Origin: Burkholderiales bacterium
Lineage (GTDB): Bacteria; Pseudomonadota; Gammaproteobacteria; Burkholderiales; SG8-41
Length of the DNA stretch: 34,261 bases
Direction: 5' to 3'
Assembly: GCA_026125585.1 (NCBI GenBank)
Contig: JAHCLD010000005.1
Location: 1-34,261, forward strand
Part shown: positions 4,884-29,900 of the stretch, piece by piece
Numbering within the stretch: the first letter of the stretch is position 1
Layout: each line of letters begins with the position of its first letter
The notes under the pieces: generated by a model
Seen by the model: only the letters and a program-made list of their open reading frames with translations
The model's database searches: none
Told to the model about the DNA's origin: nothing
Position numbers and translations under genes: made by a program

Positions 4884-6771
4884 ACTGTCGATCAACCCCG
4901 GCATCGAGATCCGGGACTCGGAACGCGAACTGCAGCGCTTCCGCCGGCGGCTCGTGCTGCTCGGCATCTTCGTGCTCGCGCTGTTCGGCCTGCTGTTCCT
5001 GCGGTTCTTCTACCTGCAGGTCGTGCAGCACGGCCATTACAGCACGCTCGCCGAAGCCAACCGCATCTCGGTGCTGCCGATCGCGCCGCACCGCGGTGTC
5101 ATCGTCGACCGCAACGGCGTGCTGCTCGCACACAACTATTCGGCGTACACGCTGGAAATCACGCCGAGCAAGACGGGCAATCTCGAAGCCACCATCGACG
5201 AACTCGCCGGAATCGTGGAAATCACGCCGCGCGACCGCCGGCGCTTCCGCAAGCTGCTCGAGGAAAGCAAGCGTTTCGAAAGCCTGCCGATCCGCACCCG
5301 GCTCTCGGACGAGGAAATCGCGCGTTTCGCCGCGCACCGCTACCGCTTCCCCGGCGTCGAAGCCAGGGCGCGGCTGTTCCGCCAGTATCCGCAAGGCGAG
5401 ATCTTTTCGCATGTCGTCGGGCACATCGGCCGCATCAACCAGCGGGAAATCGAACGGCTGGAAAAGTCCGGCCGCCTGGCGAATTACCGCGGCAGCGACT
5501 ACATCGGCAAGACCGGCCTCGAGCAGAGCTACGAGGAATTCCTGCACGGCACCACCGGCGTCGAGGAAGTGGAGGTCGACTCCGGCGGCCGCGCGGTGCG
5601 CACCCTGTCGCGCACGCCGCCGGTTTCCGGCAACAACCTGGTGCTCAACATCGACGCCGGACTGCAGGAAGTCGCCTACAACGCCTTCGGCGACCGCCGC
5701 GGCGCGCTGGTCGCGATCGATCCGCGCACCGGCGGCGTGCTGGCGCTGGTCAGCAAGCCGGGCTTCGATCCCAACCTGTTCGTCGACGGGATCGACCCGC
5801 AGAGCTGGAACGAGCTCAACGGCTCCCCCGACAAGCCGCTGCTCAATCGCGCCGCCGCCGGCACCTATCCGCCGGGATCGACCTTCAAGCCGTTCATGGC
5901 GCTGGCGGCGCTGTTCTACGGCAAGCGTCCGGCGCAGCAGGTCATCAATGATCCCGGCTACTTCATGTTCGGCGGGCACCGCTTCCGCGACGGCCGGCCG
6001 GTTCCCCTCGGCGCGGTGGACATGCACCGCTCCATCGTGGTGTCCTCCGACGTCTACTACTACACGCTCGCCAACGAGCTGGGCATCGATCCGATCGCGC
6101 GCTTCATGGAAAAGTTCGGCTTCGGCAGCCGCACCGGCATCGACATTTCCGGCGAAGCCGCCGGCGTGCTGCCTTCGACGGAATGGAAAATGCGCCGCTT
6201 CTCCCGGCCGGAACAGAAGAAATGGTACGCCGGCGAAACCATCAGCGTCGGCATCGGCCAGGGCTACAACAGCTACACGCCGCTGCAGCTCGCCTCGGCC
6301 ACTGCAACGCTGGCCAACGACGGCGTGATGTACCGGCCGCACATCGTCAACCACGTCGAGGACATCCGCACCCGCGAAAAAACGCTGATCGAGCCGGAAC
6401 CGCTGCGCGACCTGGCGCTGAAGCCGGAACACCTCAAGATCGTCAAGGACGCGATGGTCGGCGTCAACAAGGAGGGCACCTCGGCGCGAGTCTTCGCCGA
6501 CGCGCCGTACGTCGCCGCCGGCAAGACCGGCACCGCGCAGGTCATCGCCATCAAGCAGGGGGAAAAATACGTCGAAAGCCGCGTCGCCGAACGGCACCGC
6601 GACCATGCCTGGTTCATCGCCTACGCGCCCGCCGACAATCCGACCATCGCACTGGCGGTGATCGCGGAAAACTCCGGCTTCGGCGCGCGCGCCGCGGCGC
6701 CCGTGGCCCGCCAGGTGCTCGACTACCACCTGCTCGGCATACGGCCGAAGCAGCCGGCGGAGACCGACTGA
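4876..6771 (+). CDS. mrdA: Penicillin-binding protein 2 (elongation transpeptidase)
   Basis: PBP2 is the class B peptidoglycan transpeptidase of the elongasome and works with RodA. The 631-aa protein has a cytoplasmic N-terminus, one membrane helix at about 24-46, and a PBP dimerisation region containing HRGVIVDRNGVLLA. The transpeptidase domain carries all three active-site motifs: S335-T-F-K338, S390-S-D392 and K550-T-G552. It begins at a GTG inside the end of mreD; its TGA overlaps the rodA ATG by one base. Nothing is missing. Confidence 0.98.
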   Translation: MSELSINPGIEIRDSERELQRFRRRLVLLGIFVLALFGLLFLRFFYLQVVQHGHYSTLAEANRISVLPIAPHRGVIVDRNGVLLAHNYSAYTLEITPSKTGNLEATIDELAGIVEITPRDRRRFRKLLEESKRFESLPIRTRLSDEEIARFAAHRYRFPGVEARARLFRQYPQGEIFSHVVGHIGRINQREIERLEKSGRLANYRGSDYIGKTGLEQSYEEFLHGTTGVEEVEVDSGGRAVRTLSRTPPVSGNNLVLNIDAGLQEVAYNAFGDRRGALVAIDPRTGGVLALVSKPGFDPNLFVDGIDPQSWNELNGSPDKPLLNRAAAGTYPPGSTFKPFMALAALFYGKRPAQQVINDPGYFMFGGHRFRDGRPVPLGAVDMHRSIVVSSDVYYYTLANELGIDPIARFMEKFGFGSRTGIDISGEAAGVLPSTEWKMRRFSRPEQKKWYAGETISVGIGQGYNSYTPLQLASATATLANDGVMYRPHIVNHVEDIRTREKTLIEPEPLRDLALKPEHLKIVKDAMVGVNKEGTSARVFADAPYVAAGKTGTAQVIAIKQGEKYVESRVAERHRDHAWFIAYAPADNPTIALAVIAENSGFGARAAAPVARQVLDYHLLGIRPKQPAETD

Positions 6772-7874
6772 TGCCGTCCATCCTGCTGCGCCTGTCGCGC
6801 TTCATGACCCGGCACATCGACGGCGTGCTGCTGTCGGCCGTTTTCCTGCTGATGTTCACCGGGCTGCTCGCGCTGCTCAGCGCCTCCAACGGCAACTACG
6901 CCAGGGTATCCGGCCAGATGATGAACATGATGGTCGCGCTCGCCGTGATGTGGGTGTTCGCCAATATTCCGCCGCACTACCTGATGCGACTGGCGGTACC
7001 GCTGTTCGCCACTGGCTGCCTGCTGCTGATCGGTGTCGCGGTGGCCGGCGACGTGGTCAACGGCGCGCGGCGCTGGCTGGACATCGGCGTCACCCGCATC
7101 CAGCCTTCGGAGCTGATGAAAATCGCCGTGCCGCTGATGCTGGCCTGGTATTTCAACCGCAACGAGGCCTCCCTGCGGCTTCGCAACTACGCCATCGCCA
7201 CGGTCATGCTGTCCGTTCCCGTCGCCCTGATCCTGCGCCAGCCCGATCTCGGCACCGCGCTGCTGATCAGCGCCAGCGGCGGCTACCTGATCTTCCTCGC
7301 CGGGCTGCCGTGGCGGATCATCGCCGCGCTCACGGCCGCCGGCCTGGCGAGCCTGCCTTTCGCCTGGTCGGCCATGCACGACTACCAGCGGCAGCGCGTG
7401 CTGACGCTGCTCGACCCTTCGGCGGACCCTCTCGGCTCGGGCTACCACACGATCCAGTCGACCATCGCCGTCGGATCCGGCGGCCTGCTCGGCAAGGGCT
7501 GGATGAACGGCACCCAGACCCATCTCGATTTCATTCCGGAGCGCACCACCGATTTCATTTTCGCGGTCTATGCCGAGGAATTCGGCCTGCTCGGCAACGC
7601 CGTGCTGCTGGCCATGTACCTGTTCCTGCTCGGCCGCGCGATGGTGATCACCGCCAACGCGCCGACGCTGTTCGCGCGGCTGCTCGCCGGATCGATCACG
7701 CTGACCTTCTTCACCTATGCCTTCGTCAACATCGGCATGGTCTCGGGCATCCTGCCCGTGGTGGGCGTGCCGCTGCCGCTGATCAGCTACGGCGGAACTT
7801 CGCTGGTTTCGATCTGTCTCGGTTTCGGTATCCTGATGAGCATCCATACCCACAAGAAGCTGGTGCAAACATGA
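6771..7874 (+). CDS. rodA: SEDS peptidoglycan glycosyltransferase RodA
   Basis: RodA polymerises lipid II into glycan strands during elongation. The ATG at 6771 overlaps the mrdA stop and gives 367 aa, the normal size. The protein is polytopic, with SEDS-family signatures GARRWLDIGVTRIQPSELMKI, QPDLGTALLI, GSGGLLGKGWMNGTQT and a C-terminal VGVPLPLISYGGTSL. In-frame sequence upstream of 6771 is the overlapping end of mrdA in another frame and is not part of the protein. The last codons overlap the rlpA start as ATGA. Confidence 0.98.
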   Translation: MPSILLRLSRFMTRHIDGVLLSAVFLLMFTGLLALLSASNGNYARVSGQMMNMMVALAVMWVFANIPPHYLMRLAVPLFATGCLLLIGVAVAGDVVNGARRWLDIGVTRIQPSELMKIAVPLMLAWYFNRNEASLRLRNYAIATVMLSVPVALILRQPDLGTALLISASGGYLIFLAGLPWRIIAALTAAGLASLPFAWSAMHDYQRQRVLTLLDPSADPLGSGYHTIQSTIAVGSGGLLGKGWMNGTQTHLDFIPERTTDFIFAVYAEEFGLLGNAVLLAMYLFLLGRAMVITANAPTLFARLLAGSITLTFFTYAFVNIGMVSGILPVVGVPLPLISYGGTSLVSICLGFGILMSIHTHKKLVQT

Positions 7875-8902
7875 CGAACAATGCAGAGTGCAGAACGCAA
7901 ATTGCAAAGTTACCTTTGGGTGCGGACACTTTGCGTTCTGCACTTTGCACTTTGCACCAAGCCGGCGCGCCCTTGATCGTGGCACTGACGCTGCTGCTCG
8001 GCGGCTGCGGGTCTACGCCGAAACCGGGCTCATCCTCCCGCGCGCCGGCATCGCCTCCGGCGCATGGCGGCGGCTACTACCTCGACGACGGCCCCGGCGC
8101 CAATGCGCCGGCCAATATCGACGCGATTCCCGACGCGGTGCCGAGAATCGAACCCCTGCACCGCGGCACGCAGCGCCCGTACACGGTGATGGGCCGCAGC
8201 TACACGCCGATGACCCGGCTGGAACCTTACAAGGCGCGCGGCATCGCCACCTGGTACGGACGGCGCTACCACGGCAAGCCGACCTCGTCCGGCGAGCCCT
8301 ACGACATGTACGCGATGACCGCGGCGCACACCGTGCTGCCGATTCCGAGTTACGTGCGCGTCACCAGCGTCGCCAACGGCCGCTCGGTGGTGGTGCGCGT
8401 CAACGACCGCGGCCCCTTCATCGACGACCGCCTGATCGACCTCTCGTACACCGCGGCATACAAGCTCGGCATCATCGGCGCCGGCAGCGGCATGGTCGAA
8501 GTGGAAAGCATCATCCCCGGCATGACACCACCTGCTGCGGAACCGCCGGTGGCGACCGTGCCGGCACCGGCCCCCGCGGTGGAAACCGCCGCGCTGCCAC
8601 CCCCGCCTCCGGCGGCGGCAACACCGCCAGCCGCAGGCGCTGCGCCAGCCGTGACGGCACCCGCAGTCGCAGGCGGCACCTGGCTGCAGTTCGGTGCCTT
8701 CGGCGTGCAGGCCAATGCCGAGACCTATCTCGCGCGCCTGCAGAGCCAGGCCGACTGGCTGGCCGGCACGTTGCGCATCCACCACAACGACGGCATCTAC
8801 CGCGTGCAGGCGGGCCCCTATGCCAGCGATGCCGCCGCGCGCGAAGCGGCGGAACGCGCCGGCCAGGCACTGGGCGCAAAACCGGTGGTCGTCAGCCGCT
8901 GA
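7871..8902 (+). CDS. rlpA: Septal ring lytic transglycosylase-type lipoprotein RlpA (SPOR domain)
   Basis: RlpA-family lipoproteins bind, and in some species cleave, denuded glycan strands in the periplasm. The ATG at 7871 overlaps the rodA stop and gives 343 aa. The lipoprotein signal is unusual: about 32 residues precede the hydrophobic stretch APLIVALTLLLGGC with lipid Cys at 46, and those residues are encoded by an inverted heptad repeat. The double-psi beta-barrel follows (ATWYGRRYHGKPTSSGE, TAAHTVLP, NDRGPF with the putative catalytic His and Asp). A Pro/Ala linker and a C-terminal SPOR domain (WLQFGAFGVQANAE, YRVQAGPY) complete it. It ends six bases from the convergent DUF1775 gene. 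Confidence 0.93.
   Translation: MTNNAECRTQIAKLPLGADTLRSALCTLHQAGAPLIVALTLLLGGCGSTPKPGSSSRAPASPPAHGGGYYLDDGPGANAPANIDAIPDAVPRIEPLHRGTQRPYTVMGRSYTPMTRLEPYKARGIATWYGRRYHGKPTSSGEPYDMYAMTAAHTVLPIPSYVRVTSVANGRSVVVRVNDRGPFIDDRLIDLSYTAAYKLGIIGAGSGMVEVESIIPGMTPPAAEPPVATVPAPAPAVETAALPPPPPAAATPPAAGAAPAVTAPAVAGGTWLQFGAFGVQANAETYLARLQSQADWLAGTLRIHHNDGIYRVQAGPYASDAAAREAAERAGQALGAKPVVVSR
7882..7949. repeat. Inverted repeat built of heptads inside the 5' end of rlpA
   Basis: The left arm is 7882-7901 (TGCAGAGTGCAGAACGCAAA) and the right arm 7930-7949 is its reverse complement with one mismatch (19/20). The loop is 28 bases. The arms contain AGAGTGC / AAAGTGC heptad words, and the right arm continues with one more GCACTTT-type unit to about 7956. 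It lies just after the rodA/rlpA overlap and is read as rlpA codons 4-29. Confidence 0.85.
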
Positions 8903-14679: not shown

Positions 14680-15405
14680 TCAGGATTCCAGCCGGAACGA
14701 TACCGGCACACGCACCCAGGCTTCAATGTTTTCCGCACCGCGCCGCGCCGGGACGAAACGCCAGCCTTTCACCGCGTCCAGCGCCGCATGGTCCAGCACG
14801 TGCGATCGGCTCGACTGATCGAGTTCGACCTTCAGCGGCGTGCCGTCGCGGCCGACCAGCACGCGCAGCATCACCGTGCCCTCCTCGCCGCCGCGCCGCG
14901 CGGCCGCCGGATACACCGGTGGCGGATTGCGCAGGTATGCCGCCGTGAATGCCGGTGGCGTGACTGTCACCGGCGCCGGCGCGGCGGGTGCCGGGGTCCG
15001 CGCAGCCATTGCGGGCGGTGGCGGGGAAATGCCGTGTGCAGGCGTATCTTCGACCGGCGGGGACGGTGTGGACAGCACAGGCACTGCGGCGGCAACGGGC
15101 TCAGACCGGGCCGGCGGCAAAGAATCCGCCTGCGATTTCACGGCGGGTGGCGACGGTACGTTGCGAATTCGCGGCCACGGCGCGGCGTTTGCGACGACAT
15201 CGGCGGTGTCGGCCACCACCATCACCACGTCGAGCACCGGCGCCACTGCATGCATCGGCGGCGGCGATCGCCAGCCCGGCAACCACAGCAGCAGCATCGC
15301 ATGCAGGGCGACGCTGGCCAGCAGACAGATGAACAGGGTGCGCCGGGACAGACGCGGAAAATCGGCCATGGCGGGAATCGGCTCAGGCACAGGGAGAGCC
15401 GGCAT
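14680..15405 (-). CDS. tonB: Energy transducer TonB
   Basis: TonB spans the periplasm and transmits proton-motive energy from ExbB-ExbD to outer-membrane receptors. The 241-aa product has an N-terminal membrane anchor (LFICLLASVALHAMLLLWLP), a Pro/Ala-rich linker, and a C-terminal TonB domain (PPVYPAAARRGGEEGTVMLR, ALDAVKGWRFVPARRG). The start could be 15405 or 15369 (MADFPRLS); neither has a clear ribosome site. It lies downstream of znuD past a terminator-like hairpin, and no exbB/exbD adjoins it. A second tonB lies at 26160-26804, so the window carries two. Confidence 0.92.
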   Translation of the reverse strand: MPALPVPEPIPAMADFPRLSRRTLFICLLASVALHAMLLLWLPGWRSPPPMHAVAPVLDVVMVVADTADVVANAAPWPRIRNVPSPPAVKSQADSLPPARSEPVAAAVPVLSTPSPPVEDTPAHGISPPPPAMAARTPAPAAPAPVTVTPPAFTAAYLRNPPPVYPAAARRGGEEGTVMLRVLVGRDGTPLKVELDQSSRSHVLDHAALDAVKGWRFVPARRGAENIEAWVRVPVSFRLES

Positions 15406-15476: not shown

Positions 15477-17570
15477 CTAGAACTGCCCGCGCAAACCGAC
15501 CTGCGCGCTGCGCCGGCCCAGCGGCGCAATGTCCTTCAGGAAGGACACGTGGTTACGGGCCTCTTCGTTGAGCAGGTTGACCCCGCGCAGGAAGGCCTCG
15601 AGCCGCAGGCCGTTCGCCGGCAGACGGTACGTCACCGTCGCATTGAGCATCGTGTAGCCGTCGGTGGGCAGTTCGCCGGCGGCCACGCGATTCTGCCCGT
15701 CGAACACGGTGGCATCGACGCGCGCGCTGAGGCGGTCCCGGCGGTATTCCACGCCGGCGCCATAACGCCAGGGGGCGATGCGCGGCAGCGGCTGTCCGGT
15801 GCTGTGGTCGTCGGCGCGCACGTACCCCGCGCTCAACAACAGGTCAAGCGTACCGCCGCGCTCGAACACGCGGAAGCGCCCTTCACCTTCGATGCCGCGG
15901 AAGCGCGCAGGCACCGCGCGATAGGCGAATTCCGGCAGAATTTCCTCGCCGGTGTTCAGCGACGTGCCGTCGCCGGCATCGGCCGGATTCAGCTCGCCGT
16001 CGGCGCCGCGGGTGTTGCCACTGTCGAACAGCCCGAGGTAATTGCTGAAGCGGTTGTGGAACACGCTGATGCTGCCCGAGTGTTTCCCCGATTGCAGGCG
16101 CAGGGCAATGTCGACGGCCTTCGATTTTTCCTTGCCGAAAGCGCTGTTGCCGACCTCGTAGACGCCTGTGGCGGCATGGGGCCCGTTGGCATAGAGCTCG
16201 TAATAGGTCGGCGCGCGCTCGGTGTAGCTGCCGTTGACCGCCAGCGCCAGTCCCGGCATGAAACGCCACACCGCGCCCAGCGCGCCGCTGTTGCCGCTGA
16301 ACGTGCGCGTCTGCGCCGCGCCGAAGCGCAGATCGACGGCGCCGAAGGGCACGTTGCCGCCGCCTTCGCTGCCGACCTCGGTGCGTTCGTGGCGACCGCC
16401 GAAGGTCAGCCTGAGGTTGCCCAGCGGCAGTTCCTCGAAGAAGAACATCGACTTCGCGTTGGTGCTCGTCGACGGTACGAAAGCCTCGGCGCCGAGCGCC
16501 GAGAAGTCGGAGTCCGCCAATTGCAGGCCGACCGCGCCGCGCAACGGACCGATGTCGCCGTGCACCGCCTCGACATGCAGATCCTTGCCCTTGTTGCGGA
16601 AACGCGTGGCAGGAACACCCGCATCGAGCTCGACATGCTCGTAATCGGTGCTGCCGGCCTTGAACTTCAGCGAACGGATGGCCCGTCCCAGTTCGCGCAC
16701 TTCGCCGGCGAGGTCCCAGCGGCTGCTCTGCATGTCGATGGTCACATCCGGCTCGGCGACGACGCCGTACACGGTATTGAATCCGGAACGCGAAATGCCG
16801 ATGTAACCCCGGGCCCAGGTATGCGACAGGCCGACCGCGCCGCCGTCGGAACGCGACGCGCTGTTGGGCAGCACGCCCTCCGCCTCGACCGGCTGCGGAT
16901 CGGCGGCGCGCAGCCGCGCCGAACGCGCAAACCCCTTGATGCGCAGGTCGTCGGTGTCGCGGGTATAAACATCGGCATGCAGCGCGAAGCTGCCGTTGCC
17001 GGCCTCGAGCACGAGGCCCGTCGCCTTCTCGCGCCCTGCGCCGCCGAAGCGCGTCTCCGCGCGACCGGTGACCCCGCGAACGGGCGCCTGCGGAATGCGA
17101 TTGTCGATGACGTTGACCACGCCACCGACGGCGCTGCCGCCGTAGAACAGCGCGGCCGGGCCGCGCACGACTTCGGCGCGCTCGATCACCAGCGGATCGA
17201 TGCTGACCGCATGATCGAAACTCAGCGACGACGCATCGAGGATGCCTGCGCCGTTCTGCAGGATGCGGATGCGGTCGCCGTCAAGGCCGCGGATGACCGG
17301 ACGGCTGGCGTTGGGACCGAAACCGGTGGCGGCGACGCCGGGCAGGCCGTCGAGGGTGTCGCCGAGGGTGGCACCGCGCCGCTGGAACAGTTCGGTGCCC
17401 TGCAGCACGGATGCGGGGGATGCGAGTTCGAACAGCTCGCTGCCCAGCGGGTTGCCGGTGACCACCACTTCGGGCAGCATCGCCGCCGGCGCGGCAAGCT
17501 GCGCATGCGCGGCCGCCGCGTGCACCGCGGCCGCCATGGCCGCGAGCGCGAAAGATTTGCGTTTCATCAT
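15477..17570 (-). CDS. znuD: TonB-dependent zinc receptor, ZnuD type
   Basis: ZnuD is the outer-membrane receptor first defined in Neisseria that imports zinc under Zur control. This 697-aa protein has a signal peptide (ends near AAHAQ), a TonB-box-like LPEVVVTGNP, and a plug closely matching the ZnuD family (RPVIRGLDGDRIRILQNGAG, DASSLSFDHAVSIDPL, ERAEVVRGPAALFYGGSAV). A 22-strand barrel ends QVGLRGQF. GGAG seven bases before the ATG sets the start. It is last in the zinc operon, after two His-rich genes and DUF3299. Zinc is the favoured ligand from family and context. Confidence 0.9.
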   Translation of the reverse strand: MMKRKSFALAAMAAAVHAAAAHAQLAAPAAMLPEVVVTGNPLGSELFELASPASVLQGTELFQRRGATLGDTLDGLPGVAATGFGPNASRPVIRGLDGDRIRILQNGAGILDASSLSFDHAVSIDPLVIERAEVVRGPAALFYGGSAVGGVVNVIDNRIPQAPVRGVTGRAETRFGGAGREKATGLVLEAGNGSFALHADVYTRDTDDLRIKGFARSARLRAADPQPVEAEGVLPNSASRSDGGAVGLSHTWARGYIGISRSGFNTVYGVVAEPDVTIDMQSSRWDLAGEVRELGRAIRSLKFKAGSTDYEHVELDAGVPATRFRNKGKDLHVEAVHGDIGPLRGAVGLQLADSDFSALGAEAFVPSTSTNAKSMFFFEELPLGNLRLTFGGRHERTEVGSEGGGNVPFGAVDLRFGAAQTRTFSGNSGALGAVWRFMPGLALAVNGSYTERAPTYYELYANGPHAATGVYEVGNSAFGKEKSKAVDIALRLQSGKHSGSISVFHNRFSNYLGLFDSGNTRGADGELNPADAGDGTSLNTGEEILPEFAYRAVPARFRGIEGEGRFRVFERGGTLDLLLSAGYVRADDHSTGQPLPRIAPWRYGAGVEYRRDRLSARVDATVFDGQNRVAAGELPTDGYTMLNATVTYRLPANGLRLEAFLRGVNLLNEEARNHVSFLKDIAPLGRRSAQVGLRGQF

Positions 17571-17635: not shown

Positions 17636-17667
17636 CCGGGAAATCGGAAAATCAGGAAATCAGGAAA
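17636..17667. repeat. Four-unit 8-bp tandem repeat over a stop codon
   Basis: The plus strand reads CCGGGAAA, TCGGAAAA, TCAGGAAA, TCAGGAAA: two exact and two degenerate octamers in register. The array covers the stop codon of the 139-aa His-rich gene and runs into the gap before znuD. Confidence 0.75.
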
Positions 17668-18071
17668 AGGGCCGGCGTCTGCCGGCCGGGCGTCCAGGAG
17701 AACGCGGGAGGTGCGCGGGAATCGTATGGAACGGCCGCGGATTCCGCCGCGGCTGCGCCGCCGGCGGCAACCGGCACGGTGCCGGCCACGCCGGTGACGA
17801 CAGGACAGGCGCCGCCGGGAACGCCGCCGAGGACTTCGCTGTACAGCAGGTCGAAGCCGCAGTCGGCGGACCATTCACCGGAAGGCCGGTCGTCTTCATG
17901 CGCATGGCCATGCGCGGGTGCGGCACCGGCATGCACTCCGGCGTCGCCGTGAACGGCAACGTGCAGCAACGCATGATTCAGCGCACCGTGCTGGACGAAC
18001 AGCAGCAGCGCGATCAGCGCCGCATGCAGCAGGCGCAACCGCGGCAGACGCGGCAGCCGGATCCTGCTCAA
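17652..18071 (-). CDS. Uncharacterised His-rich membrane-anchored small protein
   Basis: I do not recognise a family. The 139-aa product has a basic N-terminus, one hydrophobic helix (LLHAALIALLLFVQHGAL), then a His-rich segment (NHALLHVAVHGDAGVHAG, HGHAHEDD) and two lone Cys. It would be anchored or secreted with the His region in the periplasm, so metal buffering is a reasonable inference. The start is a TTG three bases after the DUF3299 stop, with a weak AGG ribosome site; no in-frame ATG exists nearby. It lies between DUF3299 and znuD on the same strand. The C-terminal end is written by an octamer repeat. Confidence 0.7.
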   Translation of the reverse strand: MSRIRLPRLPRLRLLHAALIALLLFVQHGALNHALLHVAVHGDAGVHAGAAPAHGHAHEDDRPSGEWSADCGFDLLYSEVLGGVPGGACPVVTGVAGTVPVAAGGAAAAESAAVPYDSRAPPAFSWTPGRQTPALFLIS

Positions 18072-18074
18072 GAT

Positions 18075-18584
18075 TTACCTGCCGACGGGCGCGGCATCGG
18101 TGAGCCGGTAGTACAGCCCCATCTCGTCGTTGCGCAGCAGCGCCAGGCGTCCGGAAACGACGATCGGCTCGAAACCGTATTTCACCGGCGTCTTCGCCCG
18201 CACCTCGACCACCTGCTCGGGACCGCCCGGCATGCAGAACGCGCAGGTCGGCGGCAGGGCCACCAGCAGGAAGCGCTTCTGCCGCTCGCCCATTTCCAGC
18301 GGCATCATGAAGCCCTGCAGCTTCACTTCCTGGCGATCCAGCGCGGACACGCTCCTGCCGAAGTCCGGGATGAAGCGGTCCTTCTGCTTCAGCGTCTTGA
18401 CGTCGGCCAGCGTCTTCCACGACACCACGCCCTTCAGTTCCGGCAGCGGCTTTGCCGCGTACGGCGACGGCGGCAGGCCGGCGTCGGCGTCGCGCTTCAT
18501 CAGATCCTTCGAGCCGGGCTGAAAACCCTGGGCGCCGAGCGGAACTGCCAGCAGGAGCATCAGGGCCATCACCCAGGGTTTCAT
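18075..18584 (-). CDS. DUF3299 periplasmic protein
   Basis: DUF3299 proteins are short exported proteins of unknown biochemistry that occur beside MacB-like ABC transporters in Zur-controlled loci; the Pseudomonas aeruginosa PA4063-PA4066 group is the model I recall. The 169-aa product has a signal peptide (MKPWVMALMLLLAVPLGAQG) and the family core QEVKLQGFMMPLEMGER followed by PPTCAFCMPGGPEQ, a CxxC motif. AAGGAG precedes the ATG in an AT-rich leader that duplicates the one before the copper chaperone gene. It may thus have its own promoter inside the operon. Confidence 0.88.
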   Translation of the reverse strand: MKPWVMALMLLLAVPLGAQGFQPGSKDLMKRDADAGLPPSPYAAKPLPELKGVVSWKTLADVKTLKQKDRFIPDFGRSVSALDRQEVKLQGFMMPLEMGERQKRFLLVALPPTCAFCMPGGPEQVVEVRAKTPVKYGFEPIVVSGRLALLRNDEMGLYYRLTDAAPVGR

Positions 18585-18620
18585 AAAAACTCCTTAATAA
18601 TCAAATACTTATAAAATACC
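18585..18620 (-). promoter_or_regulatory. AT-rich leader of DUF3299, duplicate of the copper-operon leader
   Basis: The minus strand carries GTATTTTATAAGTATTTG (18602-18619) and then a 17-nt T-rich ribosome-site segment ending at the ATG. It matches 12046-12081 at 30 of 36 positions with no gaps. It fills nearly all of the 39-bp gap between the His-rich gene and DUF3299. A TTGACA lies just upstream, near 18621-18626. Probable promoter or operator. Confidence 0.6.
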
Positions 18621-18623
18621 GTG

Positions 18624-18914
18624 TCAATGGCGATGCTTCATGCCGCAGTATTTCCCGATCGCCAGCCCTTTGCAATCCTTGGCAAGCTGGGCGTGGCAGG
18701 TTTTCTCCGATTGGCCGCCCTCCAGGCATTTCGCGGCATTGAGATGGGCTTCCGCCATCGCGCGGTGATCGGCGACATCCTTCTTGATCTCGGCGGCGCT
18801 GTGCGGCTTGTTCCCCTTCTTGTGGTCATGGTCATGCGCGAACACCGGCATCGCAACCGCCAGCGCCAGGATTGCCGCCACCATCATCATGCCGCCATTT
18901 TTTTCCGGATGCAT
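18624..18914 (-). CDS. Small His/Cys-rich periplasmic protein
   Basis: No named family is recognised. The 96-aa product has a signal peptide (ends MPVFA), a metal-binding-looking start of the mature protein (HDHDHKKGNKPH), a helical middle and four Cys, ending YCGMKHRH. It could bind and pass on metal in the periplasm. Two ATGs compete: AGGAG directly abuts the ATG at 18920, while the ATG at 18914 has the usual six-base spacing and is preferred. It lies between the ABC permease gene (41 bp upstream) and DUF3299. Confidence 0.8.
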   Translation of the reverse strand: MHPEKNGGMMMVAAILALAVAMPVFAHDHDHKKGNKPHSAAEIKKDVADHRAMAEAHLNAAKCLEGGQSEKTCHAQLAKDCKGLAIGKYCGMKHRH

Positions 18915-18955: not shown

Positions 18956-20170
18956 TCAGCCCCGGGCCAGCGTGCCGGCGATGTCGGTGCGGTAGGCGCG
19001 CCAGGCCGGCAGCAGCGCGGCCACGATCCCGGTTCCCAGCGCCAGCGCGACGACCCACAGCTCTTCCGCCACCCAGGCGAAGCCGGTGATTTCGGCCTGC
19101 TGCGCCGCCTTCAGCGCATGGCCCAGACCTTCCGCCATCGCGTGGCCGAGCACGAGCCCCAGCGCCGCGCCCAGCAGGGCCAGCAGCAATCCCTCGAACA
19201 GCAGCAGCAACAGCAGCCGGCGCGGGCTCGCGCCCAGCGTGCGCATCACCGCGAGGTCGTAGCGCCGCTCGTTCAGCGCGTTGTAGAGCGCGATGAACAC
19301 GCTCAGCCCGGCGCTGAGGATCAGCACCAGCGCGAAGGCGCGCAGCACGTCGACGCCGACGCCGATCAGGCTGAACAGCCGCGCCGTTTCGTACGCCGGC
19401 GACGCCGCCTGCATGCCGGTGTTGCCGTTGATGTAGCGCGGCAGGATCGCCGCCGCCAGCGGTGAGGCGTACTGCAGCAGCAGCGCGGTGAATTCCTTCT
19501 CTTCGTCGCCGAGCTGCCGCTCGATGTCGGTCACGTCCCTGATGTCGTGGTGCTCGGCGTGCACCACCCACACGCTCTGGTAGGACGAGAGCACCAGGCG
19601 GTCGAGCACGGTGCCGCTGCGCTCGAGCACGCCGACGACCCGGTACGGATGATCCTCGTGGACGTGGCTGCCGCTGTCGCCGAGGCCGTGCGCGCCGTGG
19701 AATTCGGCGCCGACGCCGAATCCGGTGCGCGCGGCGACTTCGGCGCCGAGCACCGCCTCCATCGGCGCCTGCCACATCCGGCCGGCGGCGATTTTCGCGC
19801 CGTAGTGCCCGACGTAATCCGGCGTCGTGCCGACGATGCGATAGCCGCGGTAGCTGTCGCCCAGCGCCAGCGGAATGGCCTTCTTCACCGCGCGGTGGCG
19901 CGAGATCTCCTGCGCCTCCTTCCAGGCGATGTTCCCGGTCGGCACGTCGATGTGGTAGATCGCCGACAGGATGATCTGCAGCGGGCTGCCCTTGGCGCCG
20001 ACGGCGAGGTCGATGCCGCGCGCGTCGCGCTGCATGCGCTCCTCGAGCTGGTGGGTCGCCAGCAGCAGCAGCACGATGGTGCCGACGCCCAGCGCCAGCA
20101 GCAGCACGTTGAGCAGCGTCGCCAGCGGCCGCGCGCGCAGGTACGAAAGACCGACGGTCGCGATGTTCAT
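18956..20170 (-). CDS. ABC transporter permease, FtsX/MacB type, with His-rich loop
   Basis: This 404-aa permease has an N-terminal membrane helix (LATLLNVLLLALGVGTIVLLL), a large periplasmic domain, and three C-terminal helices with the FtsX-type RRYDLAVMRTLGASPRRLLL. The periplasmic domain is rich in His (HGAHGLGDSGSHVHEDHPY, VVHAEHHDIRD), which is unusual for this family and suits metal handling. The ATG overlaps the TGA of the ATPase gene. It resembles the MacB-like permease of Zur-regulated clusters. Whether it imports metal, exports a ligand or moves lipoproteins is not settled by sequence. Confidence 0.9.
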   Translation of the reverse strand: MNIATVGLSYLRARPLATLLNVLLLALGVGTIVLLLLATHQLEERMQRDARGIDLAVGAKGSPLQIILSAIYHIDVPTGNIAWKEAQEISRHRAVKKAIPLALGDSYRGYRIVGTTPDYVGHYGAKIAAGRMWQAPMEAVLGAEVAARTGFGVGAEFHGAHGLGDSGSHVHEDHPYRVVGVLERSGTVLDRLVLSSYQSVWVVHAEHHDIRDVTDIERQLGDEEKEFTALLLQYASPLAAAILPRYINGNTGMQAASPAYETARLFSLIGVGVDVLRAFALVLILSAGLSVFIALYNALNERRYDLAVMRTLGASPRRLLLLLLFEGLLLALLGAALGLVLGHAMAEGLGHALKAAQQAEITGFAWVAEELWVVALALGTGIVAALLPAWRAYRTDIAGTLARG

Positions 20171-20805
20171 GCGCGCCCCCCCAGGTCGTAATGATGCGCA
20201 ACGCGCGACTTGATGCGCCGGTCGTGGGTGGCGATCAGCAGCGTCGCGTTGCAGGCCGCCGCCTGCGCCTGCAGCAGTTCCAGCGCCTGCAGGCAGCGCG
20301 CGTCGTCGAGGTTCGAGGTCGGTTCGTCGGCCAGCAGCAGTTGCGGGCGGTTGACCACCGCGCGCGCGATGGCGACGCGCTGCGCCTGGCCGAAGGACAG
20401 CTCATGCGGCTTCGCCGCCCCCTTGCCGCCAAGGTCGAGGCCGTCGAGCACTTCATCGATCCGTCGCCGGTCCTGCGGCAGCCCGGCGAGGTACTGCGCG
20501 AGCAGCAGGTTGTGCGCCACGTCGAGGCTGGGAATCAGGTGCAGCCGCTGCAGCACGATGCCGATGTGCCGGCCGCGGAAGCGGTCCAGCGCCTGCGCGC
20601 GCAGCGCTCCGATATCCTGCCCCGCCACGGTCACCGTGCCGGCCGCGGGCCGCAAAATGCCGGCCAGCGCGTGCAGCAGCGTGGTCTTGCCGCTGCCCGA
20701 AGGCCCGAGCAGCAGCCAGTGTTCGCCCTGGGCCGCACGCCAGGCATCGACGTGCAGCACCTCGGCTCCGTCATAGGCATGGCTCACACCGTGCAATTCG
20801 AACAA
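20167..20805 (-). CDS. ABC transporter ATP-binding protein, LolD/MacB type
   Basis: This is the ATPase partner of the adjoining permease. The 212-aa product has Walker A GPSGSGKTT (34-42), the Q-loop region, a signature LSFGQAQRV (LSFGQ rather than LSGGQ), Walker B LLLADEPTSNLD and the switch His in IATHDRR. The start chosen is a TTG two bases after the CobW gene stop, with GGAGGA about seven bases upstream; no ATG fits. The end overlaps the permease start (ATGA). Coupled on both sides in the zinc operon. Confidence 0.92.
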   Translation of the reverse strand: MFELHGVSHAYDGAEVLHVDAWRAAQGEHWLLLGPSGSGKTTLLHALAGILRPAAGTVTVAGQDIGALRAQALDRFRGRHIGIVLQRLHLIPSLDVAHNLLLAQYLAGLPQDRRRIDEVLDGLDLGGKGAAKPHELSFGQAQRVAIARAVVNRPQLLLADEPTSNLDDARCLQALELLQAQAAACNATLLIATHDRRIKSRVAHHYDLGGRA

Positions 20806-20807
20806 AT

Positions 20808-22034
20808 CTATTCCTCCTCGATGCGGGTCCAGACGGGAAAAGGATCGGGATAGGAACACCAGGCCGCCGGCCCCTGCGCCATCTCGTCCGCGGTCAGCAG
20901 GCAGTCCTCCAGCGACTTTTCGATGGCCGCCCGGTCCATGCCGATCCCGATGAACACCAGTTCCTGCCGGCGGTCGCCCCAGGGTTCGACCCACTTGGTG
21001 CCGACAAGTTTGAGGTATTCGTCTTCCTTCGGCCAGTCTTCGCGGTCGACGGCGACCCACCACAGCCCCGCGGCCGCGTGGCGACAGACACCGCCGGCCT
21101 GCGACCACGACGCGGCGAAGTCCATGCGCGAGGCGAGCCAGAAATAACCTTTCGAGCGCAGCACGCCGTCCCACTCCGAGTGGATCAGGTCCCAGAAACG
21201 CTGCGGATGGAAGGGCCGGCGCGCGTGATAGACAAAGCTCGAAATGCCGTATTCCTCGGTCTCCGGCAGATGCTCGCCGCGCATCTCCTTGAGCCAGCCC
21301 GGCGCCGCGGAAGCGCGTTCGAAGTCGAAGCGGCCGGTGTCGAGGATTTTGCCCAGCGGCACTTCGCCGAACTTCGAAACCACGATCTCCGCCTCCGGAT
21401 TGAGGGTGTGCAGGATGGAAACCAGCCGTGCCATCCCGTCCACCGTCACCAGGTCGCCCTTGTTGACGACGATCACGTCGGCGAATTCGATCTGATCGAC
21501 CAGCAGGTCGACCACGGTGCGCTCGTCTTCCCCGCCGAGGCTCTCGCCGCGGTCCCGAAGGAAATCGCTCGAAGCGTAATCCTTCAGGAAATTGAAGGCA
21601 TCGACCACGGTGACCATCGTGTCCAGCCGCGCGACATCCGACAGGCTGCGGTCTTCCTCGTCGCGGAAGGTGAAGGTCTCCGCGACCGGCAGCGGTTCCG
21701 AGATACCGGTCGATTCGATCAGCAGGTAGTCGAAGCGGCCCTCGGCGGCCAGCTTGTTGATCTCGACCAGCAGGTCCTCGCGCAGCGTGCAGCAGATGCA
21801 GCCGTTGGACATCTCGACGAGTTTTTCCTCGGACCGGGACAGCGCGGCGCCGCCCTCGCGCACCAGTTGGGCGTCAATGTTCACTTCCGACATGTCGTTG
21901 ACGATCACCGCGACGCGCCGGCCTTCACGGTTGTTGAGCACGTGATTGAGCAGCGTGGTCTTGCCGGCGCCGAGAAACCCGGACAGCACCGTCACCGGCA
22001 AGCGCGCCGCATCCCCGGCCGCGTTCCTGTTCAT
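20808..22034 (-). CDS. CobW/ZigA-type zinc metallochaperone GTPase
   Basis: COG0523 GTPases of this subgroup deliver zinc to client proteins under starvation. The 408-aa product has Walker [10 protein letters not shown] (19-27), the metal motif C79-I-C81-C82 (NGCICC), the G-domain motif NKGD, and a C-terminal CobW domain with [20 protein letters not shown]. The start at 22034 is set by GGAGG eight bases upstream; a GTG at 22055 is possible but less well placed. It lies between a 93-aa gene and the ABC ATPase. Zinc rather than cobalt is inferred from neighbours (ZIP, Zur-like, DksA2-like). Confidence 0.93.
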
Positions 22035-22051
22035 CCCGGAGGCCTCCGCAA

Positions 22052-22333
22052 TCACTGGCGCGTCTGGCCGGCGCCGGTGTGCGTTTCGACGATGTGCGAG
22101 GCCAGTTGGCCGAGCACGCCGGCCACGCCGAGGGGGCCGTAGGCCTCCACCAGCCGCGGCAGCAGCTCCGCAATCAGCGCCGCGTTGACAGCGGCGCGGT
22201 CGATGCCGTGCTGCTCGCAGCGCGTGAACGCGGCGCGGAGTTCCGCCACGGCGCGGGCGTGCTGCTCGGCGGCGGCCTGCGCCCCCGCCTCCGCACCGGC
22301 CCGATCCTGGTTGAAGGTCTGCATGGGATTCAT
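22052..22333 (-). CDS. Uncharacterised 93-aa protein in the zinc operon
   Basis: No family is recognised. The protein is soluble and mostly helical with Ala-rich segments ([20 protein letters not shown]), a single Cys, and a C-terminal [20 protein letters not shown] region. The ATG lies one base after the DUF1826 stop; GAGG eleven bases upstream is a loose ribosome site. The tight spacing to DUF1826 and the CobW gene argues for a real, co-expressed gene. Confidence 0.7.
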
Positions 22334-22334
22334 T

Positions 22335-22997
22335 TCACGATACCTCGTCGAGACAGAGTCTGAGCCTGCGCGCGCCGGTGCCTTCCACCGGCGGCGAGCG
22401 ATGGACGATGCCGTTGCCGGCGTTGCCCGGATAGGATTCACCCTTCTGCAGCAGCACCCACCAGGGCCGCGCGGTGCGGATGTCCGACTGGCGCGGCACG
22501 ATCGCGCGGTTGGCGGCGTCGAAGGCGCGGCCCTGCGCCGTCAACTGGTCGCGGCGGACGTCGCCATTGCCGGCCCACTGCGTGCCGAATCCGCTGTAGG
22601 TCACCAGCATGCGCAGCCCCGCGGCATCGACATGGAACAGCCGGCATGCGTCCGTGGCGACCGTTTCCAGGTGCGCCCGGACGGCGCGCCGTCCCATGAC
22701 CACGCCGAAGCGGCGGACCAGGAAATCGATGTCGGCGGCGAGCATGTCGCGTGCCGCGCCGGCCGGGCAGCCGTCGAGGAACATCCAGACATCGGGCTCC
22801 TGCGCGTCGAGCACCGCTTCGACGTCGCAATCCTCCGCGGCATTGAATCCGTCGACAACCGAAGCCAGCGCCGGATCCTGGTTCCTGCGCCAGATCACGA
22901 GATTGATGCCCGGATTGCGGATCGCGGAGAATTCCGCGGCGCTCCGCGCGTAGCGGAAATGGATGGACAGCACGTTCGACGCAGGCTCAGTGGCCAT
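22335..22997 (-). CDS. DUF1826 family protein
   Basis: DUF1826 proteins are uncharacterised cytoplasmic proteins found in Zur-type clusters. The 220-aa product contains INLVIWRRNQDP near the start, FHVDAAGLRMLVTYSGFGTQW in the middle, and the C-terminal GNGIVHRSPPVEGTGARRL, with conserved His that may bind metal. The ATG at 22997 lies 11 bases inside the end of the DksA-like gene, so the two are coupled; an upstream in-frame ATG (23039) would lie fully within that gene. Confidence 0.88.
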   Translation of the reverse strand: MATEPASNVLSIHFRYARSAAEFSAIRNPGINLVIWRRNQDPALASVVDGFNAAEDCDVEAVLDAQEPDVWMFLDGCPAGAARDMLAADIDFLVRRFGVVMGRRAVRAHLETVATDACRLFHVDAAGLRMLVTYSGFGTQWAGNGDVRRDQLTAQGRAFDAANRAIVPRQSDIRTARPWWVLLQKGESYPGNAGNGIVHRSPPVEGTGARRLRLCLDEVS

Positions 22998-23424
22998 ACA
23001 CGCGCTCCCGCTTCTCGCGCCGTTCCTGCGCCTCGACACAGAGGGTGGCGGTCGGCCTGGCCAGCAGCCGCTGCAGGCCGATCGGCTCGCCGGTTTCCTC
23101 GCACCAGCCGTAGGTCCCTTCGTCGATCATGGCCAGCGCCCGGTCGATTTTTTTCATCAGCTTGCGCTCGCGGTCCCGGGTCCGCAGCTCGATCGCCTGC
23201 TCCTCCTCCTGCGTCGCGCGGTCGTTGGGGTCGGTGGCGACTTCCGCCTGCCGCAGATGGCTGCTGGTCATGCCGACATTGGAGATCAACTCGTCGCGCA
23301 ACCGTCGCAGACGGTCCCGGAAAAACGCCTGCTGGGCCTCGTTCATGTAAGCCCGCTCCGGCATGGCGAGCAGTGCCTGCTCGTCGGCCGGCAGCCGGGA
23401 CGGGATTGCCTTCCGCGTTTTCAT
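22987..23424 (-). CDS. dksA2: DksA2-type (zinc-independent) transcription factor
   Basis: DksA binds the RNA polymerase secondary channel and, with ppGpp, controls rRNA and biosynthetic promoters. The 145-aa product keeps the coiled-coil tip D65-x2-D68-x-A70 (DPNDRA). The zinc finger has C108 and C129, but the partner positions are T111 and A132 with the normal 17-residue spacing. This C-T-C-A pattern is that of P. aeruginosa DksA2, which works without zinc. It sits just after the ZIP gene and a 66-aa gene, as expected for a paralogue made when zinc is scarce. The ATG overlaps the preceding stop (ATGA). Confidence 0.93.
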   Translation of the reverse strand: MKTRKAIPSRLPADEQALLAMPERAYMNEAQQAFFRDRLRRLRDELISNVGMTSSHLRQAEVATDPNDRATQEEEQAIELRTRDRERKLMKKIDRALAMIDEGTYGWCEETGEPIGLQRLLARPTATLCVEAQERREKRERVYGH

Positions 23425-23628: not shown

Positions 23629-24399
23629 TCAATGCGAATGCAGCAGCGTGTGCGACAACAGGATCGTGCCGATCCCCGCACCGATGAACACGACCTGCAC
23701 CGCGCTGCTGCGGGCATCGCTGCGGCGGTGCATCTCCGGAATCAGGTCCGCCACGGCGATATAGATGAAACTTGCGGCAGCGAGCACCAGCACGTACGGC
23801 ATCGCCTCACGCGCGTCATCCAGCGCGAAGTAGCCCAGCACGCCGCCGGCGAGCGACATCAGGCTGGACGCAAAATTGAGCAGCAGTGCCTTCCGGCGGC
23901 TGTAGCCGGCGTGCAGCAGCACCATGAAGTCACCCACCTCCTGCGGGATTTCATGGGCGATGATCGCCAGCGTGGTCGCCACACCCAGCGCAGTGTCGGT
24001 CATGAAAGCCGCGGCGATCAACACGCCATCGACGAAGTTGTGGAAACCGTCGCCGATGACGATCAGCATCCCGGTCCGGCTGTTGTGGCCGCCGCCCGAG
24101 CTGCCATGGTCGTGGCCGTGCCGCCACAGCGCCGCCTTTTCCAGCAGGAAAAAACCGAGCAGCCCGGCGAGCGTGACCGCGAACAGGCCTTCGATGCTGT
24201 CGGCCTGGGAGAACGCTTCCGGCAGCAGGTGCAGGAAGGCCGCGGCCAGCAGGACACCTGCGGCGTAGCTCACCATCGGCGCGAGCCAGCGCGACAGCAG
24301 GGCAAAGGACAACAGGCCCGCCGCGAGCAGGCTCAGCATGCCGCCGGCCAGCGTCGCAAGAATGATCCAAACGAGAACGGTGTCGATGACACTCTCCAA
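23629..24399 (-). CDS. ZIP family zinc/divalent-metal transporter
   Basis: ZIP proteins move Zn(II) and related ions into the cytoplasm. The 256-aa product has about eight membrane helices and the metal-site helices GDGFHNFVDGV (His120, Asn121, Asp124) and HEIPQEVGDF (His149, Glu150, Glu154). The loop between helices 3 and 4 is His-rich (HGHDHGSSGGGH). The start is taken as the TTG at 24399; no in-frame ATG or GTG exists nearby, and no Shine-Dalgarno precedes it. A TGCAA-N5-TTGCA site lies four bases upstream, so the mRNA may have a very short leader. Confidence 0.93.
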   Translation of the reverse strand: MESVIDTVLVWIILATLAGGMLSLLAAGLLSFALLSRWLAPMVSYAAGVLLAAAFLHLLPEAFSQADSIEGLFAVTLAGLLGFFLLEKAALWRHGHDHGSSGGGHNSRTGMLIVIGDGFHNFVDGVLIAAAFMTDTALGVATTLAIIAHEIPQEVGDFMVLLHAGYSRRKALLLNFASSLMSLAGGVLGYFALDDAREAMPYVLVLAAASFIYIAVADLIPEMHRRSDARSSAVQVVFIGAGIGTILLSHTLLHSH

Positions 24400-24402
24400 T
24401 AT

Positions 24403-24417
24403 TGCAATCTAGTTGCA
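24403..24417. promoter_or_regulatory. Candidate Zur-type operator at the ZIP promoter
   Basis: TGCAATCTAGTTGCA is a perfect TGCAA-N5-TTGCA inverted repeat. On the minus strand it lies immediately after a -10-like CATAAT (24417-24422), so it would cover the transcription start. Two similar sites lie at 29812-29826 and 29851-29865. Confidence 0.65.
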
Positions 24418-24421
24418 TTAT

Positions 24422-24452: not shown

Positions 24453-24920
24453 TCAGTGGGAGTGGCGCTGGGAGCGTGTACCGGGGCGCGCGGGCACGCA
24501 GCCTGCGCAAAGTCCCTTGACCGTGAGTTCCACCTGCTGCTGCCGATAACCGGCCGGGAGTTTGACGGACGGCTTCGCCGCCACCGGCTCCAGGCACAGC
24601 ACCTGCCCGCAGTCGCTGCACTGGAAATGCGCATGCGGCCCTGGGTGGGCGTGGCCCGCCGCATTGAAACGCCAGACACGGTCGTCGCCGGCGATCTTGT
24701 GCGCCAGACCGTGCTCCGTCAGCCACTCCAGCACGCGGTAGATGGTGACCCGGTTCACTTCGCGCGAAGCCGGCAGGCGGGACTCGACTTCCGTGTGCGT
24801 CAGCGCGCGTTCGGCGGCCAGCAGCACGGCAAGCACCATGATGCGCGGCCGCGTCATCCGCGCACCGGTGCCGCGTATGGCCTCTTCCGCCGTATCGAGA
24901 TGGTCGCGTTTCATGGGCAT
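24453..24920 (-). CDS. zur: Fur-family regulator, Zur-like
   Basis: Fur-family repressors bind DNA when metal-loaded. The 155-aa product (start at 24920, MPMKRDH; 24914 also possible) has a winged helix (MTRPRIMVLAVLLAAERALT, VNRVTIYRVLEWLTEHGL) and a dimerisation domain. Structural zinc ligands are present: C101-x2-C104 and C138-x2-C141. The sensor-site segment is HAHPGPHAHFQC. Zur rather than Fur is inferred from its place between exbD and a ZIP gene and next to dksA2. It has a 114-bp gap upstream that could hold its own promoter. Confidence 0.87.
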   Translation of the reverse strand: MPMKRDHLDTAEEAIRGTGARMTRPRIMVLAVLLAAERALTHTEVESRLPASREVNRVTIYRVLEWLTEHGLAHKIAGDDRVWRFNAAGHAHPGPHAHFQCSDCGQVLCLEPVAAKPSVKLPAGYRQQQVELTVKGLCAGCVPARPGTRSQRHSH

Positions 24921-25034
24921 TTGCCGGAACTGGATACGATTAGAGCACAGACCAGACAGCCCCGCCAATGAGGGTTGAATTTACTCCATAAAAAACAACG
25001 TGTTGATAAATTTCACCGGCTCCCGGAATCCGCA

Positions 25035-29060: not shown

Positions 29061-29792
29061 TTAATGCGATTTGTGTTTGATCACAAAAGTCAGCGAAGCG
29101 AACAGTCCCCTCTTGGCGGCCTTGGCCGGATCGTCCGGCGGCGCGTCATAGGCTGCGCTGATCACGTTCAGGCCGTCATTGCGCACACGCAGCGTGACGC
29201 TGCCGTCCTTCCCGGTGACCAGCGGTTTGGCTTCGGGATCGCCGACATAATCGCGGGTGACCTTGGCGCCGGCGACCGGCTTGCCGTTGAACAGCACGCG
29301 CACGGTCATCGACTCGTCCCTGTGGTGCGGCAGTGCCGCCTTCAGCGGCACGATCTGCAGCACCTGGCCCGGCAACGGCTTCAGCGGCGCCTTCAGCGAC
29401 TCGCCCAGGAACACCGCGTACTTGACGTAGCGCCCGCTCTCCTCGGCGCCCGGCACCTCGTCGCGGCCCTTGTTGACCCACTTGCCGTCCGGCCCCTTGC
29501 TCCAGTAGCCGTTGTCGAGCATGCCAGTGATCACCGCCGGCAGCGGCTTGGCATCGACCAGCAACAAGTGGTCGGTCTTGCGCAGCGATACCGGCACCGG
29601 CGCGCCACTCGCGTCGTAACCGGCCACTTCCTTCACCTTGTCATGGCGGCGGATCATGTCGAGGTCCTCCGCACCGTGGCCGTAGATCATCGCCAGCTGC
29701 CCCGAGCGCTCGGCGAACCAGATGCCGTGCGCCTGCGCGCCCAATCCCAGGACGCACAGCAGCGCGCCTGCCCACCACTTCGCTTGTGTCAC
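29061..29792 (-). CDS. DUF4198 periplasmic protein (NikM/YcnI-like metal-associated)
   Basis: DUF4198 proteins are exported beta-rich proteins often next to metal receptors. The 243-aa product has a signal peptide ending AQA before His22 (HGIWFAERSG), so the mature protein begins with His, as in other copper/nickel/zinc proteins with an N-terminal His. The middle has MIYGHGAEDLDMIRRHDK, and the C-terminal half an Ig-like FNGKPVAGAKV. The start is a GTG with GAGG five bases upstream. It is first in the long minus-strand zinc operon. Confidence 0.88.
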   Translation of the reverse strand: MTQAKWWAGALLCVLGLGAQAHGIWFAERSGQLAMIYGHGAEDLDMIRRHDKVKEVAGYDASGAPVPVSLRKTDHLLLVDAKPLPAVITGMLDNGYWSKGPDGKWVNKGRDEVPGAEESGRYVKYAVFLGESLKAPLKPLPGQVLQIVPLKAALPHHRDESMTVRVLFNGKPVAGAKVTRDYVGDPEAKPLVTGKDGSVTLRVRNDGLNVISAAYDAPPDDPAKAAKRGLFASLTFVIKHKSH

Positions 29793-29811
29793 GATTACCT
29801 CTCCCTGTTAT

Positions 29812-29826
29812 TGCAACAAGGTTGCG
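29812..29826. promoter_or_regulatory. Candidate Zur-type operator 1 (DUF4198 promoter)
   Basis: TGCAACAAGGTTGCG matches TGCAA-N5-TTGCA with one change in the last base. It lies directly downstream of the -10 TATCAT of the DUF4198 promoter (minus strand), the same geometry as the site before ZIP. Confidence 0.65.
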
Positions 29827-29855
29827 ATGATAGCCGCGCCTGGACATTTACGCAA
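29827..29855 (-). promoter_or_regulatory. Promoter of the zinc operon (DUF4198 start)
   Basis: On the minus strand TTGCGT (29850-29855), 17 bp, TATCAT (29827-29832). The -35 matches three of six and the -10 five of six bases. Both elements touch the TGCAA-type sites. Confidence 0.55.
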
Positions 29856-29865: not shown

Positions 29866-29900
29866 ATTAAAGGCGCGGCAAGCAAGCTTATACTTCCGGC

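Follow-up and report, generated by a model that had tools for sequence, protein, structure and literature searches.

H96, a small four-cysteine exported protein of zinc-acquisition loci and putative periplasmic zinc chaperone

The window – the whole stretch of DNA that was analysed, 34,261 nucleotides at positions 1–34261 of contig C212 – comes from a 2.5-Mb draft genome (74% complete) of a Burkholderiales bacterium. It contains a zinc-acquisition island of ca. 15 kb, encoded on a single strand between 14680 and 29870 (Table 1). Two TonB-dependent receptors, two TonB genes and ExbBD are found here, as well as a Fur-family regulator, a ZIP transporter, ZigA, DUF1826 and DUF4198. Read along the minus strand, the gene order is DUF4198, TonB-dependent receptor, TonB, ExbB, ExbD, Fur-family regulator and ZIP; then a DksA-like gene, DUF1826, a 129-aa ORF without a name, ZigA and an ABC ATPase; and finally a MacB-like permease, a 96-aa exported protein (H96), DUF3299, a 139-aa protein, a ZnuD-like receptor and TonB. 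The permease and the ATPase were typed as ZrgB and ZrgC from their Pfam matches to FtsX, MacB_PCD and ABC_tran. The ATPase is a 215-aa reading within a longer ORF (20167–21174), and its end at 20814 is approximate. The ZnuD model is the best NCBIfam match of the ZnuD-like receptor, though under the cut-off. The periplasmic part of the permease has a histidine cluster of its own, HGLGDSGSHVHEDH, at residues ca. 159–174, which is weaker in the homologue from another class.

Table 1. Features of the zinc-acquisition island and its candidate regulatory sites
Feature	Position	Strand	Evidence or remark
TonB protein	14680–15405	minus	
ZnuD-like TonB-dependent receptor	15477–17570	minus	NCBIfam ZnuD NF038289, 308.7 bits, cut-off 950
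DUF2946-like 139-aa protein	17652–18071	minus	ORF, TTG start
Divergent DUF3299 protein, ZrgE type, TCAFC motif	18075–18584	minus	Pfam 41.3 bits, cut-off 22
H96, 96-aa exported protein	18624–18914, stop included	minus	ORF; no Pfam/NCBIfam family
MacB/FtsX-type ABC permease, ZrgB type	18956–20170	minus	Pfam FtsX 56.8, MacB_PCD 48.3 bits
ABC ATPase, ZrgC type	20167–20814	minus	ABC_tran 109.5 bits
ZigA zinc metallochaperone GTPase	20808–22055	minus	NCBIfam NF038288, 696.6 bits, cut-off 600
DUF1826 protein	22335–23039	minus	
DksA-like protein	22987–23424	minus	Name given by eye
ZIP zinc transporter	23629–24399	minus	Pfam Zip 134.6 bits
Zur-like palindromic box	24402–24418		Immediately upstream of ZIP gene
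Fur-family regulator, presumably Zur	24453–24968	minus	Pfam FUR 44.7 bits
DUF4198 gene	29061–29792	minus	
Two more Zur-like boxes	29811–29827, 29850–29866		Upstream of DUF4198 / second receptor unit

A first-pass annotation had singled out two small exported ORFs that flank the DUF3299 gene, between the ABC pair and ZnuD. Both ORFs were borne out by the ORF, Pfam and dN/dS analyses, as was their placement, with the ABC genes upstream and the ZnuD-like receptor downstream. Both are real proteins under purifying selection, with a dN/dS of 0.05–0.19 for H96 (8 pairs) and 0.20–0.42 for the 139-aa protein (5 pairs).

The H96 ORF has an ATG start with AGGAG upstream. The protein consists of a likely signal peptide, a variable linker, a two-helix core and the tail CGMKHRH. 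In the window, HDHDHKKGNKPH opens the putative mature protein and its linker (the signal peptide was judged by eye), and there are exactly four Cys, at 63, 73, 81 and 90, both as first described. The family alignment contains 52 sequences – the window protein and 51 of the 79 locus sequences, after fragments and near-duplicates were removed by hand – and follows the pattern HRAMAxAHxxAAKCLESGKxxxxCxxxLxxxCKGLAIGKYCGMKHxH. D46, H50, R51, A56, H57, A61, C63, C73, L77, C81, G87, K88, C90, G91, M92 and H94 are invariant, so that the core carries four invariant Cys with H50 and H57; a His is found at residue 96 in 50 of the 52 and at residue 38 in 43. The exported linker has one His in 41 sequences, two in 5, none in 4, three in one, and four in the window only. 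The HDHDH stretch is restricted to window H96, with HNH in one other aligned sequence. The label "His-rich" therefore holds for the linker in the window and is no feature of the family, as most linkers hold one His. Judged by the alignment, the hallmark of H96 is its four Cys with H50, H57, H94 and a near-invariant His at residue 96, rather than the HDHDH start.

No credible Pfam or NCBIfam match was found for window H96, and a Pfam scan of the window protein and family members found no ZnuA-type domain (PF01297). Weak Pfam matches to Conotoxin in 20 of the 52 members (best 7e-4) and to PepSY_2 in two (best 9e-4) were discounted as likely Cys or signal-peptide matches; other Pfam matches were weaker. 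The plasmid copies of H96 are annotated "hypothetical protein". The AF2 model is a helical hairpin (40–65/70–81) with a short helix, of moderate confidence overall (pLDDT 73.9, pTM 0.52), with block pLDDT values of 89–95 across residues 41–80. No distinctive fold emerged from searches with Foldseek (best E 1.3) or VIA (best Z 5.9, unrelated proteins); FrmR (Z 4.7) and CsoR (Z 4.4) scored level with unrelated rows, and no PDB entry matched by sequence at E<=1. H96 is a sharply conserved family without an entry in Pfam or NCBIfam. The statement that neither small protein fits a nameable family stands for H96; the 139-aa protein is DUF2946-like (the window member is under the cut-off). No account of the H96 family was found in the open-licence literature, nor is it described in the parts considered of PMC9817125, PMC9820375, PMC11481552, PMC4176598, PMC9431628, PMC7731109, PMC8561739, PMC10882993 and PMC6103462.

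A pattern-based scan of one genome per species (84,980 species) identified 169 stretches coding an H96 relative. The best 80 were kept; these are the closest relatives, are not independent, and in some cases end at contig edges. Among these best 80 of 169, the arrangement permease/H96/DUF3299 is found in 63, permease/H96 in 3, H96/DUF3299/ZnuD in 2, H96 with only a ZnuD-like receptor in 7, and neither in 5. ABC/DUF3299 genes or a ZnuD-like receptor therefore adjoin H96 in 75 of the best 80 loci.

Profile searches of overlapping genome samples, with the source genome included, detected H96 in 14 of 250 genomes at order level, in 2 of 274 at class level and in 6 of 249 at phylum level. Zinc-type neighbours are present in 13 of the 14 in the order sample, and permease/H96/DUF3299 in 11 of the 14; in one of the 14 (G235) the DUF3299 gene was missed by Pfam and recovered with the window's DUF3299 protein as query. 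In G166 a ZnuD-like receptor lies downstream of H96, and in G126 a two-domain H96 follows a ZnuA gene ca. 3 kb downstream of DUF3299. The tandem H96 domains of G126 (L177, 5095–5526, minus strand) adjoin this ZnuA-type gene (PF01297) and also a barrel-type gene with a weak OmpL-like match. No zinc gene was seen around H96 in the stretch of G084 examined. Loci without a zinc neighbour are thus 5 of the best 80 and 1 of the 14, and the homologues do not lie mainly outside metal loci, the outcome named at first pass as counting against the relay.

Among 61 relatives, the set of genomes with H96 and the set with a close DUF3299 match (E<1e-60) are the same 22 genomes (Fisher 5e-17, uncorrected for relatedness). 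Eleven more of the 61 have weaker DUF3299 matches and lack H96: a 60-residue fragment in G032, three matches at 1e-30 to 1e-47 and seven at 1e-4 to 1e-9.

The two phylum-sample matches outside the class are both from one genus. In one genome of this genus, which belongs to a different class of the phylum, the genes run permease, DUF3299, H96, and identity to the window over the aligned parts is 48% for the permease, 37% for DUF3299 and 54% for H96; the second genome of this genus has DUF3299, H96. H96 is also present on three Antarctic Polaromonas plasmids, of which the two whose annotation was examined encode a zinc-binding protein, H96 and a TonB-dependent receptor in succession (4898–8305 in both L211 and L212). 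On the one plasmid scanned, the best NCBIfam match of the binding protein is AztC (266.8 bits, cut-off 350), and the receptor is ZnuD-like, 44% identical to that of the window. Toxin-antitoxin and recombinase genes are found near the plasmid cassettes. In Limnohabitans and a Comamonadaceae relative (L075, L079, L082), a gene identified by eye as msrA-like precedes H96; L075 retains H96, the DUF2946-like gene and ZnuD, while in L079 and L082 only H96 is left, which looks like a loss of the receptor.

The 139-aa protein has one N-terminal hydrophobic helix (AF2 helix 11–44) followed by HGHAHEDD, which agrees with the membrane anchor and His cluster first described. Its other features are HxxxH, a variable His-rich linker, invariant C71/D74 and RxPP. 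The AF2 model (pLDDT 64) is confident about little beyond one long helix at the N terminus. An iterated profile of this protein drew in H96 sequences from round two; these and doubtful rows were removed, leaving an alignment of 36 – the window and 35 ORFs chosen by eye from all search rounds – across which H33, H37, C71, D74, R119, P121 and P122 are kept. DUF2946 matched 11 of the 36 at E<=0.1 (best 3.8e-9), while the window member scored 13.9 bits, under the Pfam cut-off of 23.7. The type was found in 33 of the 61 relatives. The two small proteins had been presented together, and as one pair they are not supported: 7 of the 22 H96 genomes lack the 139-aa protein, and the 139-aa gene occurs at 15 loci in 14 genomes without H96 (including G032), where it directly precedes a ZnuD-like receptor in four, follows the permease or DUF3299 in three, precedes the ATPase in one and has no such neighbour in seven. 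Since each occurs without the other, the 139-aa protein is an independent module, separate from H96 and often on the receptor side. In L034, two DUF2946-like copies (3595–3951 and 6854–7240) flank the ABC/H96/DUF3299 block.

In the window, a palindrome resembling TTGCAAC-N3-GTTGCAA immediately precedes the ZIP gene. The box is found before this gene, with 1–3 mismatches, in all six of the other ZIP-holding loci. In 24 of 59 loci the 1.1 kb preceding the ATPase contains the box with up to three mismatches, relative to 2.1% of 1,180 base shuffles, a count free of matches within H96 codons. The box-like matches at ca. 6100–6230 in the loci do fall within H96 codons and are not operators; because such matches were counted, the total of 87 box-like matches in the loci is inflated. 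In the whole sequenced genome (74% complete), one-mismatch sites are found only at 24402, 29811 and 29850, and a reversed control gave 1 match. At three mismatches the window alone has five matches, no more than expected by chance, since 15 of 100 shuffles have at least that many. In 13 loci where no permease match adjoins H96, the box was not seen in front of H96; the plasmid locus has the box at chance level only, and the classic Zur box GTTATAnTATAAC gave nothing convincing across 13 scanned sequences. In nine box-bearing loci that were inspected, the ATPase is immediately preceded by a Fur-like ORF (by eye); the two that were scanned matched Pfam FUR at 0.005 and 0.018, under the cut-off. 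From its placement and recurrence, the palindromic box is probably a Zur operator.

The 250-genome order sample includes 75 genomes with DUF3299, which is canonical in 42 (99–163 bits) and divergent in 34 (22–42 bits), one genome having both. ZrgA scored above its cut-off in 31 of the 42 canonical and 0 of the 33 divergent-only genomes, and H96 was found in 0 of the 42 and 11 of the 33 (Fisher 6e-12 for ZrgA and 4e-5 for H96, uncorrected for relatedness). H96 and ZrgA never occur together in the 250 genomes, yet their avoidance alone is not significant (p=0.23). ZrgA (PF10986) was detected neither in the source genome (74% complete) nor in the same-genus genomes G001, G004, G006 and G012 (95–99% complete), of which G006 lacks H96 and DUF3299 as well. 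DUF2607 had no match in the source genome and a single match, under the cut-off, in 185 genomes. The island resembles a Zrg-type zinc system that lacks ZrgA.

H96 is absent from 23 of the 34 genomes with a divergent DUF3299, so the transporter does not require it. Of the 22 examined, five carry, in the place of H96, a protein of PepSY type that begins with a His/Cys stretch (confirmed by Pfam in two, identified by eye in the other three). Another 16 leave the H96 place empty, as the permease and DUF3299 overlap or are separated by less than ca. 150 bases, and in the remaining one (L157) DUF3299 was not recovered. A scan for small exported genes near divergent DUF3299 was insensitive, flagging 2 of the 5 known PepSY genes, and was not used against substitutes encoded elsewhere.

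H96 may be a periplasmic zinc chaperone of zinc-acquisition loci, a reading to which we give an even chance on the strength of its invariant residues, its gene neighbours and the conserved operator-like box. A signal peptide would send a protein of ca. 70 residues to the periplasm, where its four Cys could form two disulfides that hold the helical hairpin, and H50, H57, H94 and the His at residue 96 could make up one zinc site. H96 would take zinc arriving through the ZnuD-like receptor and hand it on to the inner-membrane side – to the MacB-like ABC/DUF3299 products or, elsewhere, to a ZnuA/AztC-type binding protein – and the DUF2946-like protein, as a separate module, would be a partner at the receptor end, anchored in the membrane. 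H96 is retained across loci that differ in receptor and in inner-membrane partner, a pattern that suits a carrier better than a subunit. The periplasmic relay first suggested is partly supported: both genes keep their place at zinc loci, and the plasmid cassette fits it. The H96 His cluster as the working part is not supported.

Next in rank, and rather unlikely, H96 would serve the MacB-like ABC pair as its own solute-binding protein, standing in for ZrgA without being homologous to it. The split of ZrgA and H96 between the canonical and divergent DUF3299 genomes agrees with this, as does the finding that zrg function in Vibrio cholerae needs ZrgA (PMC9820375, in part). However, H96 also adjoins ZnuD or another binding protein in loci that lack the ABC pair, the 16 divergent loci leave no room for a gene in the H96 place, and the avoidance of ZrgA by itself falls short of significance.

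It is less probable still that H96 carries no zinc and acts in redox chemistry or protein stability, with its Cys and the DUF3299 TCAFC motif exchanging disulfides or keeping a partner metallated. The H96 Cys are invariant and TCAFC is kept in DUF3299 across classes, but H50, H57 and H94 are equally constant and H96 has no CxxC motif.

Import and export by MacB-like Zrg transporters are a matter on which PMC9820375 and PMC11481552, in the parts considered, point different ways. MacB itself is described as moving the STII peptide out of the periplasm and out of the cell (PMC9820375, in part), and export has been argued for the Pseudomonas homologue of the ABC pair (PMC11481552, in part). On account of that argument, a low probability is kept for H96 as the cargo: the MacB-like pair would export a small, Cys-rich, disulfide-braced protein zincophore, linked to ABC and receptor alike, which the ZnuD-like receptor would retake loaded with zinc. 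No MacA- or TolC-like gene is among the scanned island genes, and there are loci with H96 and the receptor that lack the ABC genes. If true, it would reconcile the exporter reading of these transporters with a role in zinc uptake. That H96 is a bystander whose place was merely inherited is the least credible reading, for the five of 80 loci where it is alone (L079 and L082 adjoining msrA) are set against the matching co-occurrence, the swapped order in the other class, the plasmid cassette and strong purifying selection.

As a putative chaperone, H96 is probably an accessory protein for moving zinc between the outer and inner membranes, previously undescribed in the open-licence literature, and its family is absent from the two profile libraries searched (Pfam and NCBIfam). 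It bears on the route of zinc through the periplasm once a TonB-dependent receptor has let it in, and on the direction of transport, inward or outward, by MacB-like Zrg transporters; both become testable with a small, sharply conserved protein that is tied genetically to receptor and transporter.

The closest known system is Zrg (ZrgABCDE in Vibrio, PA4063-PA4066 in Pseudomonas). According to the relevant parts of PMC9817125 and PMC9820375, it shares with the island a MacB-like permease, a separate ATPase, a DUF3299 protein (ZrgE) and a small exported metal-related protein; its control by a zinc regulator has a putative counterpart in the conserved Zur-like box and neighbouring Fur-family gene of the island. 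Unlike Zrg, the source genome has H96 in place of ZrgA, no DUF2607 (in a genome 74% complete) and a divergent DUF3299, of 41 bits relative to 99–163 in canonical proteins, and the island is joined to a ZnuD-like receptor, TonB, ZigA and ZIP.

AztD and ZinT, the periplasmic zinc chaperones of AztC and ZnuA, are larger than H96. The role proposed for H96 is like theirs, and H96 adjoins ZnuA/AztC-type genes in G126 and on the plasmids; AztD hands zinc to AztC (PMC7731109, in part). H96 differs in having four Cys and no credible Pfam or NCBIfam model match. DUF2946 genes, for their part, are present in the Zur-controlled czr operon of Caulobacter (PMC4176598, in part), and a DUF2946 gene and a receptor gene carry consecutive numbers, PA0433/PA0434 (PMC9431628, in part). 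The window's 139-aa member differs from DUF2946 (PF11162) in its low score and its variable His linker.

The PepSY_2 proteins of other Burkholderiales are, like H96, small, exported and encoded between a MacB-like permease and DUF3299, at five loci (L158 at 3946–4284, L162, L164, L166 and L172), with starts such as HDHSPC and HDETPC. They score 55–72 bits to PF13670, which window H96 does not match, and a distant tie between the two appears unlikely from their sequences. Three apparently unrelated small exported proteins – ZrgA, H96 and PepSY_2 – go with one type of transporter.
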